DNA from: Ascidia mentula
Taxonomy: Eukaryota > Chordata > Ascidiacea > Phlebobranchia > Ascidiidae
Length of the DNA: 64,000 bases
Direction of reading: 5' to 3'
Assembly: GCA_947561715.1 (NCBI GenBank)
Contig: OX387200.1
Coordinates: forward strand, 18,354,501-18,418,500
Shown here piece after piece: positions 56,431-59,152 of this stretch (positions are counted from its first letter, which is position 1; every line of letters starts with the position of its first letter). Under the pieces are notes generated by a model. The model saw nothing but the letters and a program-made list of their open reading frames with translations. It was not told the origin of the DNA and ran no database searches. The position numbers and the translations under genes are program-made.

Positions 56431-57123
56431 CCGGTTGGCGCTCTTTGATTGGCCAATCTTGAGTTTTAAATTTATTGGAATATTCTCGGTGTGAGAACTC
56501 TCCTTTCATCTTTGATTGCAAGATATTTTTATTGTGTTTAAAGCCTTTGTGTCATCGTATTTTGTACTACCATCGTTTACTCATGTGCGTGAGTGCCTTC
56601 ATCGCCGACCCATGAATTCCGAATCGAAGATTGCAATACAAGAAGCATTTGTAACCTTGCTTGTTGCACCAGGACAACGATTCCCAACCGGGGATAAATT
56701 TTGAAAGCAAAAAATTTACAAACTTTTCACTACACGCCATGTAGTTTTTGAACAGTTATATCAAAACCGTTGGTAAATTTTGCATTATTTCTTTGCTTCG
56801 CTGCAATGTTTTTAGCTTTTTTTTCTTTTTGTTTTGGTTTGTATTTCAAAACCTCTCTTTGTTTTACTCTAATTTTGCAATGTTAAAAATATGCCAGAGG
56901 TAAATTGGAGAAAAATGGTTGGGAACCTACGCACTGGGAGCTCAGTATGGAGAATAGTTAGAAGACCACAAGTTTATTTCAAAGTCACAGCGAGGCAAGG
57001 ACGAAACGTGAAACACAAATAAGCATGAACCGGTGCTCTGACACCACGGCCGACAAAAAAGGAAACAACAGAGCATATGGTTATAAGACGTAGTGATAAA
57101 AATAATCAGTTCTGGATACCACT
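56431..57123. other. Convergent spacer SWAP70-like / PTH-like gene
   Basis: Holds the 3' UTR of the plus-strand gene. No coding exon seen. Confidence 0.5.
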
Positions 57124-57126
57124 TTA
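57121..57126 (-). terminator. Polyadenylation signal overlapping the stop of the PTH-like gene
   Basis: On the minus strand the last codons read GTG GAA TAA followed by AGT, so AATAAA spans the stop codon (57124-57126) and the three bases after it. Confidence 0.65.
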
Positions 57127-58397
57127 TTCCACAAGGTCATAACTGACAGGAACATAGTCAAAGTGGTCCTCATACGGCGACATCATAACTTCATCCGAGC
57201 TTTTAAACTGGTAGCCGGTTGTTTCTCCGTTTTCGGGTTCTCGAAGGTTCTCCCCTGATGTAAGAAGTCGTTCCACGTCGAGGGGCTCAAGGGACGACAG
57301 CCATTTTTCGCCCACAAGCGCACGCAAATCTGCGAAGAGTATGTCTTTAGTAAGGTGTCAGTTTCTTTGCGGCGGGATGTCAACCAATACTACAAAACTA
57401 AAACTGTTAAGGGTCTGATCATTGTTTTTTTACATATATAGTGAAAGTACGTTTGTTCAGCAGTATTTTGTTATTGTCAGCTTTAAATTCGTATTGTGAA
57501 ATTTCTTCATGGGCAATTTTCGTCTTGGGTTAATTCGTTACCTTGGACCCTTGACATAAGATCTCTTTTGTAATCGATAATTCGATACACATCGTCGCTT
57601 GAACCGCCTGCAAAAGAACCCAAAAATAGTTTCGTTGGTCACAGCGATTTTCTGCTTGATTCCTTTATTTGGTAATCAACTAAAAAGCCTAGGAACACTA
57701 TTTGGGGATCTGCTCATAATTTTAAGAATAAAGAGATTGGTCCATACTGTTAAAAGCATTGGCATGTTTTATTTATTTACTGTTGTCAACAGTTTGGGAC
57801 AATCTATTTATTCTTAGAAACAAAAAAAACCTAAATCCAATCATAAGGTTCGCAAAATCCTTTTCATATATGGCCAAAAAAATAACAAACGGGTATACGT
57901 TATTGTTTTCATACTCACTAGACTTGGTTGAAGAGGGGATAATGACATTCTGTGAAGGAACGCTGGTTGTTCCTCGTTTCGTCATATTCTCCAGGAGTCT
58001 ATGTAAGTAGAGCTGGCGAAGGAGGGTCTGCATTTTTCGGTTGTTGTGTTCTGTTATCGCAATATCCGCGTTGGAGGCTCCCCGTCTTACCCTGTGTTAA
58101 GGTAACGTTTAGATAAGGTTACAGTTGACCAAAAACAAACCCATATTCTTGTTTATGTATTGTGACAGATGGTACGATTTTGCTTACTTCAAAACTTCGC
58201 ATTTTACAGCAAAACAACTACAAAGCACCAGAAACATCCAACGGATTTTCTCGCAACAAAAAGGAATGATAAAACAGTCCATTATACCTGGTTTGAACCT
58301 TTTGGAGCCTTCCAAGCGAGATTTTACCAATAAAACTCTTTCCGGAGGCATTTGCCACCACGAGGCACAAAGCGAGGCTCAACAAGCAAATCTGCAT
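57124..58397 (-). CDS. Secreted prohormone, PTH/PTHrP-like (proposed)
   Basis: Four coding exons (58288-58397, 57919-58091, 57542-57607, 57124-57329) with GT-AG borders and matching phases give 184 residues; human PTHrP precursor has about 177. Residues 1-16 form a signal peptide (MQICLLSLALCLVVAN). Arg-Arg at 39-40 sits at the very start of exon 2, as Lys-Arg does in PTH genes. Residues 41-74 are a 34-residue peptide bounded by Lys-Arg 75-76. Counting from S43, it aligns ungapped with PTH/PTHrP: S1, D4 for Glu4, I5, R13, R20, Y23, L24, L28. The stretch TLLRQLYLHRLLENM parallels human PTHrP DLRRRFFLHHLIAEI. The rest (77-184) is acidic and unrecognised. The start is the ATG at 58397, behind an acceptor at 58407. 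A TATA box lies upstream. A glucagon/PACAP-type peptide is the main alternative. A real secreted precursor is likely; the family is inference. Confidence 0.68.
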
Positions 58398-58591
58398 TTT
58401 TCTTTTCTGCAAACAAACAACGTTGATCATTTCACCGCAAAGTTGAGAAAAGACTTACAATACGCACTTTTTGTTTTTAAGCACAGCTCGTATGAACGCT
58501 AGTTTTCCAAAAACGTATTTCCTTGGTGCAGGCGTACGAAGACACGTTAATATTCTTGTGCTAAATTATGATGGATAACCCCTTGTCTGTA

Positions 58592-58599
58592 CTTTTATA
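58592..58599 (-). promoter_or_regulatory. TATA box of the PTH-like gene
   Basis: TATAAAAG on the minus strand, 195 bases upstream of the start codon. It fits a non-coding first exon of about 58567-58459. A donor GTAAGT follows at 58458-58453 and a 52-base intron ends in GTTTGCAG at 58407. Confidence 0.6.
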
Positions 58600-58771: not shown

Positions 58772-59152
58772 ATGACTGGCAGCCTTTATTTCGCTGGGAT
58801 ATTTCTCTTTGCTTGTCTCTCTTACGTCAGCGATTCAGGAGCTGACAACAACAACAACAATAGCGACAGCTTTTCCGTGTTAGTGCGGTCGATTTACGTC
58901 AGGTGTCCAGGGGCTGTCTTTGGACAATGCACCGTACGGAACCAAGTGGACCCTCAGCTGCCGGGAGGACCATCAGAACCCCTTCGCTGCTTCCGCTTTC
59001 CGATTTGTTGTCAACGCGCGATGCAGAAATGCCTGAATTACTTTATGGAAACCCATTTTATTTTTCCCAAGTGTGTTGTGGCAACGGACAAGTTGTTGCC
59101 TTATATCGTTAATGACTTTCTCAGCTTATTGCCTCTGACATCCCGGCAATAA
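58772..59152 (+). CDS. Putative secreted cysteine-rich protein, family unknown
   Basis: Open frame of 126 residues from an ATG that gives a clear leader (MTGSLYFAGIFLFACLSYVS), then an Asn-run (GADNNNNNSD). The mature part has seven cysteines: RCPGAVFGQC, RCFRFPICCQRAMQKC and FPKC. The hydrophobic C-terminal stretch reads YIVNDFLSLLPL. It lies head to head with the PTH-like gene, 375 bases between start codons. I do not recognise the fold and see no introns. The leader and clustered cysteines argue against chance, but the downstream end lacks a clear AATAAA (only AATAAG at the stop). It could also be the first exon of a longer gene. Confidence 0.45.
   Translation: MTGSLYFAGIFLFACLSYVSDSGADNNNNNSDSFSVLVRSIYVRCPGAVFGQCTVRNQVDPQLPGGPSEPLRCFRFPICCQRAMQKCLNYFMETHFIFPKCVVATDKLLPYIVNDFLSLLPLTSRQ

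Follow-up and report, generated by a model that had tools for sequence, protein, structure and literature searches.

A candidate parathyroid hormone-superfamily gene in the tunicate Ascidia mentula

Analysis of a 64,000-nucleotide stretch of the Ascidia mentula genome (contig OX387200.1, positions 18,354,501 to 18,418,500, here called the window; positions below are counted from its first letter) points to a compact minus-strand gene that quite likely encodes a tunicate hormone of the parathyroid hormone (PTH) superfamily. At the center of its predicted product is a 34-residue peptide, GASNADIAITEHNNRKMQTLLRQLYLHRLLENMT (57980..58081, minus strand), characterized by translation, alignment, and profiles.

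The gene opens with a TATA box recognized by motif only (TATAAAAG, 58592..58599), a non-coding exon 1 placed from sequence and inference with its start about 30 bases past the TATA box (58459..58570), and a 52-base 5'UTR intron defined by its splice-site sequence, GTAAGT...TTTGCAG (58407..58458). All of these are on the minus strand, as are the coding exons; the original prediction had proposed the same splicing but named no strand. The coding part of exon 2 (58288..58397) carries the signal peptide and most of the pro-region, and exon 3 (57919..58091) begins with the last base of a split Arg codon (residue 37) and continues with VRR, the entire hormone, KR, and a linker; both were taken from the spliced reading frame. 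Exon 4 (57542..57607), with another dibasic, YKR, and exon 5 (57124..57329), which encodes an acidic Tyr-rich C terminus and a TAA stop, were assigned from the spliced frame together with codon usage. The stop codon lies inside an overlapping AATAAA (57123..57128). The coding-region introns measure 196, 311, and 212 bases, all are GT-AG, and their phases are 2, 1, and 1; the four coding exons (57124-58397) join in phase into 184 codons followed by TAA, which reproduces the 184-residue precursor first proposed, its signal peptide being judged by eye. We grade the splice sites as plausible to good, with the four donors within the best 1.7-6.8% of GT sites in the window and the four acceptors within the best 0.7-3.0% of AG sites on an approximate textbook matrix.

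Using a codon-usage model trained on 2096 codons from neighboring exons, we obtained 0.15 bits per codon for the joined coding sequence with zero in-frame stops, compared with 0.016 and 0.009 in the other frames, which contain 5 and 9 stops. A value of at least 0.15 is reached by 11 of the 338 window ORFs of 60 or more residues, some of those 11 being training exons, and the ORF bearing exon 5 ranks first of all 338 (0.259). For exons 2 and 3, another frame scores higher than the one used (0.037 in the used frame versus 0.096, and 0.048 versus 0.146), which means that exons 4 and 5, rather than the hormone exon, supply the codon signal. This weak bias is what speaks for there being no real gene, or a wrong exon chain, a reading that we consider very improbable given four plausible donor-acceptor pairs with joins in phase, a clean signal peptide, a stop positioned at an AATAAA, and the location of exon 5 inside the most coding-like ORF of the window. 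When the 196-Mb genome was searched with the precursor, the matches were the four exons of the gene itself and a single site at chance level (E value of 5.9), and no additional copy turned up.

Three further features were observed within the gene. Spliced-leader trans-splicing is part of tunicate biology, and the acceptor of the 52-base intron, 9 bases upstream of the ATG, could be a trans-splice site instead; the candidate spliced-leader acceptor TTTGTTTGCAG (58397-58430, minus strand) terminates 9 bases 5' of the ATG. An in-frame upstream ATG would give 11 extra residues if the 52-base intron were retained. An inverted repeat (57720-57819) with 39-base arms, 79% complementary, and a 22-base spacer lies in the intron that separates coding exon 3 from coding exon 4 and is possibly a small mobile element.

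The precursor consists, in order, of a signal peptide (MQICLLSLALCLVVANA, approximately residues 1-17, by eye), a pro-region ending in RVRR (residues 37-40), the 34-residue peptide, a predicted KR cleavage site (57974..57979), and a 108-residue tail with one further dibasic site. The peptide had been expected between RR and KR, and this is where it lies, the upstream site in full being RVRR. Because glycine is missing before the KR, amidation is not expected, which argues against the amidated families. AlphaFold, run on the precursor alone, gave a mean pLDDT of 45, a quality too low for a fold search, with a helix at residues 28-75. After removal of the signal peptide, a furin-type protease or prohormone convertase would cleave after RVRR and at KR, and a carboxypeptidase would trim the KR to release a non-amidated 34-residue helix.

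To place the peptide among known hormones, we compared it with one human sequence each of TIP39, PTH, and PTHrP. MAFFT aligns it to all three without internal gaps, to TIP39 from the cleavage site and to PTH and PTHrP starting two residues in, and among these four sequences only R22 and L26 of the candidate are invariant columns. These are R20 and L24 in PTH numbering, common to the three human hormones and kept in the candidate at the correct distance from the cleavage site. The best ungapped offsets to TIP39, PTH, and PTHrP (0, 2, and 2) are those of the hormones' mutual register, and 2 of 4000 shuffles reproduced all three. The summed gap-free BLOSUM62 score to the three hormones is 71, which ranks first (runner-up, 17) among the 905 distinct 34-mers found directly after KR or RR in the six frames of 285 kb of this genome, comprising the window and overlapping loci. 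This score was reached by none of 90,500 shuffled dibasic 34-mers and, when the peptide itself was shuffled 500,000 times, by a single shuffle, odds that, like all shuffle odds given here, concern a peptide picked beforehand for its PTHrP-like look across windows and families.

Taken singly, with 100,000 shuffles each, the scores are 31 for PTHrP (reached by 2), 21 for PTH (reached by 71), and 19 for TIP39 (reached by 64). Most of the signal resides in the C-terminal half of the peptide, whose score was reached by 12 of 100,000 shuffles, and the N-terminal half is weak (1767 of 100,000). As a yardstick, we scored TIP39 and the candidate in the same way against PTH plus PTHrP, and the score of TIP39 was reached by 4 of 100,000 shuffles and that of the candidate by none; in this test the candidate is therefore as near the family as a recognized member.

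Profile searches with HMMER, on profiles built from one human sequence per hormone, agreed with this. On the PTH and PTHrP profile the candidate scored 8.3 bits, TIP39 6.9 bits, and the best other hormone 3.1 bits, among the 21 listed of 22. The 8.3 bits were reached by 2 of 5000 shuffles of the candidate (4489 listed), and the 6.9 bits of TIP39 by 14 of 5000 TIP39 shuffles (4660 listed). With all three members in the profile the candidate scored 7.8 bits, and 9 of 5000 of its own shuffles (4677 listed) scored as high, the top one at 11.4 bits. Leaving PTHrP out reduced the candidate to 3.1 bits, versus 16.0 for PTHrP itself; with PTH left out, it scored 7.1 bits versus 15.2 for PTH. Gapped local alignment gave a score of 42 with PTHrP (z of 6.45, 0 of 600 shuffles), was not significant with PTH (p of 0.23), and was weak with TIP39 (p of 0.04). 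PTHrP, whose likeness had first drawn attention to the peptide, carries most of the family resemblance of the candidate.

Family searches in databases returned blanks. Neither the whole precursor nor the 40-residue peptide region matched Pfam at E values up to 10, NCBIfam gave no match to the whole precursor, and the PDB gave none to the 40-residue region. Searches for relatives in viral_contigs and genome_contigs, described as viral and prokaryotic DNA, gave 6 and 75 pattern matches, 0 of them confirmed. The candidate did not reach the cut-off of PF01279 (Parathyroid), which PTH and PTHrP match and human TIP39 does not, or that of PF14980 (TIP39), on which human TIP39 scores 95.8 bits. Since these two models miss each other's hormones, the Pfam blank is weak evidence, and the failure of human TIP39 to match the PTH model means that the two models do not define the superfamily. 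Searches of the genome with PF01279, human PTHrP, and human TIP39 gave no match and missed the candidate locus itself, and the PTH Pfam family also went unfound by this approach in all 14 control genomes. Such blanks therefore do not speak for absence, and a better PTH-like ligand may lie elsewhere in the same genome. A 15-residue query likewise failed to recover its own locus in a genome search.

The absence of relatives in Pfam, NCBIfam, the PDB, viral_contigs, and genome_contigs would also suit a tunicate-specific secreted precursor whose amphipathic, Leu-rich helix came to look like PTHrP by convergence or chance. Identities to single members number only 5 to 7 over 32-34 positions and the resemblance rests mainly on PTHrP; amphipathic helices are common, and this one was selected for its look. 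Many Ciona peptides are without homologues, according to the available part of PMC8936170. We nevertheless regard this explanation as unlikely, because none of the 904 other dibasic 34-mers and a single shuffle in the half million matched the score, one register serves all three relatives, and the peptide stands above TIP39, an accepted member, on the PTH and PTHrP profile.

Membership of the PTH superfamily was also weighed against membership of other class B1 ligand families, as the peptide, on its sequence, shows a general class B1 ligand pattern. We consider it improbable that the gene encodes a glucagon/secretin-type ligand, such as a tunicate GCG/PACAP-like hormone, for a GCGR/VIPR-like receptor of the same genome. 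All nine secretin-family peptides compared fit best ungapped at offset 3 (VIP, z of 3.95; PHM, z of 4.08), NADIAITEH resembles HSDAVFTDN by eye, a GCGR/VIPR/secretin-type receptor is present (see below), and amphioxus PACAP/GCG peptides are described as highly divergent in the available text of PMC7251081. Yet the secretin-family profile gives 0.8 bits versus 7.8 for the PTH profile, the His/Tyr1-x-[DE]-[GA] start is absent at the cleavage site, there is no Gly for amidation, and the best local alignment is with PTHrP and not with VIP (score of 29, z of 2.9). CRH/urocortin was considered and rejected: an ungapped fit exists at offset -20 (z of 3.5), but the profile score is -3.4 bits and Gly is missing before the KR. 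The profile check that had been proposed for the peptide thus favored PTH, with no other family clearly better.

Compared with the individual members of the PTH group, the candidate is mixed. Human PTH has a non-coding exon 1, an exon 2 for the pre-sequence and part of the pro-sequence, and an exon 3 for the remaining pro-sequence and the hormone, and its intron leaves one nucleotide of codon -2 upstream (available text of PMC9974466). The candidate gene matches this exon plan, its exon 1 resting on sequence and inference, but its intron falls at codon -4 in phase 2; the comparison was with human PTH only, and intron position and phase are a supporting and not a defining feature of the superfamily. 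The original prediction that an exon starts at the pro-site as in PTH therefore stands as to an intron close by and not as to its position and phase. In the peptide, the likeness to PTH comprises the positions of S, acidic 4, I5, R20, L24, and L28, although 5 of 32 aligned residues are identical and W23 is replaced by Tyr. Among the activation residues (S/A-V-S-E-I/H-Q), S, A, D, and I fit positions 1, 3, 4, and 5, V2 and Q6 do not, and H9 of PTH is also not kept. The fit to PTH proposed for the N-terminal half is partial in these residues, and the shuffle score of that half is weak.

With TIP39 (PTH2) the candidate has in common an RxRR before the peptide and a two-residue N-terminal extension, and the residues A5, D6, A8, R15, L20, R22, and L26 are identical. 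Human TIP39 is preceded by PRPRR, which falls within the stretch matched by the Pfam TIP39 model, and TIP39 is not amidated, as is predicted for the candidate. It differs in having 39 residues, where the candidate has 34 followed by KR and 108 residues, and in W25, which is Tyr in the candidate; as noted, PF14980 does not match the candidate. PTHrP gives the best local score, TLLRQLYLHRLLENM of the candidate aligning with DLRRRFFLHHLIAEI of PTHrP, and the core LHRLL/LHHLI is nearest to this hormone. The PTHrP motif HQLLH is absent from the candidate, whose N terminus is two residues longer, and Pfam found no match in the precursor to the PTHrP mid-region or osteostatin. Some PTHrP genes have extra 3' coding exons beyond the hormone exon (PMC3009671, available text), as does the candidate. 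The insect ligand iPTH, as described in the accessible part of PMC7224569, acts on a PTHR-type class B1 receptor, carries the amidation signal GRR, and is less than 12% identical to human PTH, PTHrP, and TIP39; the candidate would be assigned to the same receptor type, and it lacks Gly before KR.

Within the PTH group, the sequence thus appears to combine a TIP39-like cleavage site and extension with a PTHrP-like core. The designation of the hormone as PTH/PTHrP-like survives insofar as the similarity withstands the controls, while the precursor anatomy fits TIP39 equally well. The residues held in common with the superfamily, a profile score above that of TIP39, and the exon plan on one side, and the unmatched Pfam models and differing intron phase on the other, lead us to regard the candidate as a probable PTH-superfamily ligand and not as an orthologue of PTH, PTHrP, or TIP39.

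If residue roles are carried over from PTH, the C-terminal face of the released peptide (R22, Y25, L26, L30, and M33, corresponding to PTH 20, 23, 24, 28, and 31) would dock on the receptor ectodomain, and the N terminus (S3-N-A-D6-I7, compared with S1-V-S-E4-I5 of PTH) would enter the membrane core, probably raising cAMP. A receptor of the PTH type is encoded in the same genome, as had been anticipated for tunicates. Pfam HRM and 7tm_2 searches with PDB comparison located a PTH-type receptor at C1:21.500-21.506 Mb, whose TM3-4 exon scores 77 bits with PTH1R, 73.7 with PTH2R, and 53.2 with the secretin receptor (the best non-PTH match), and whose ectodomain exon scores 41.9 bits with PTH1R, 31.9 with the secretin receptor, and 31.2 with PTH2R. 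A calcitonin-type receptor at C70:9.63 Mb gave 54.5 bits with the calcitonin receptor and 29.7 with the best match outside the calcitonin/CGRP group. The GCGR/VIPR/secretin-type receptor at C72:16.60 Mb gave 39.6 bits with VIPR2, 38-39 with the GLP-1, glucagon, and secretin receptors, and 31.5 with PTH1R. These types were assigned from single exons in a sample and not a census: of the 57 loci from the receptor searches, about 30 were inspected in translation, together with one additional stretch.

The PTH-type locus (C1:21500759-21506350; L001, L016, L020, and L053) contains one first-half ectodomain exon and two differing tandem second-half HRM exons (L016 and L020), which may be alternative ligand-binding exons or belong to two genes. 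Among the matches listed, a large cluster of 7tm_2-type receptor matches lies on one contig, C2, for example at 0.4-0.6, 1.5-1.8, 3.4-4.2, and 7.5-7.8 Mb.

Tunicate PTH signaling has a prior literature. Two PTH receptors are reported for Ciona (PMC2396169), and in 2012 invertebrate databases were described as containing no PTH-family ligand, with two PTH receptors in Ciona (PMC3483286), both in the available text. The original prediction suspected that no tunicate PTH ligand had been described; this proved incorrect, as two reviews, in the parts available, credit tunicate or urochordate PTH-like peptides to Mirabeau and Joly 2013 (PMC4354418, PMC5640766). The candidate is therefore not the first such claim; the tunicate and amphioxus peptides of that report belong to the same claimed family and animal group, a correspondence drawn from the description in the citing reviews only. 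One of these reviews notes PTHR-like genes in urochordates and calls for clarification of what the PTH-like peptides of invertebrates truly are (PMC4354418, available text). The PACAP gene is described as absent from tunicate genomes, though earlier Chelyosoma PACAP cDNAs are cited (PMC7251081, same part as above). The word parathyroid is absent from the main text, as available, of two recent Ciona peptide papers (PMC8936170, PMC12441681). Among open-licence papers, as represented by titles and abstract openings, we recognized none in which a PTH ligand from a tunicate was tested functionally.

With one ligand gene and one PTH-type receptor locus, the candidate might, as a tentative reading that we hold to be somewhat doubtful, be a single pre-duplication chordate PTH ligand, ancestral to the split of PTH, PTHrP, and TIP39. 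If so, the TIP39-like processing site and extension, the PTHrP-like core, and the 3' coding exons together would represent the ancestral state. With a ligand gene and a candidate receptor present in one genome, the role of PTH signaling before there were bones or parathyroid glands becomes open to direct test, and the candidate can serve as a tunicate seed sequence in the search for divergent orthologues missed by ordinary profiles.

In keeping with a tunicate source, glycoside hydrolase family 6, a gene that to our knowledge is found among animals only in tunicates, has two matching loci in the genome, which at 32 and 27.8 bits exceed the Pfam cut-off of 27. Around the candidate gene, ten nearby ORFs were scanned, eight of which contain domains and two none; the domains are TRAF zinc finger, MATH, LYR, topoisomerase, UCH with weak ubiquitin and DUSP, CCDC28, PH, and UNK-type CCCH. 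None of the usual neighbor genes of PTH, PTHLH, and PTH2 is among these ten. A divergent neighboring ORF (58772-59152, plus strand) encodes 126 residues that open like a signal peptide and include eight cysteines, and it is blank in Pfam; it begins about 170 bases from the candidate TATA box, so the promoter region may be common to both.
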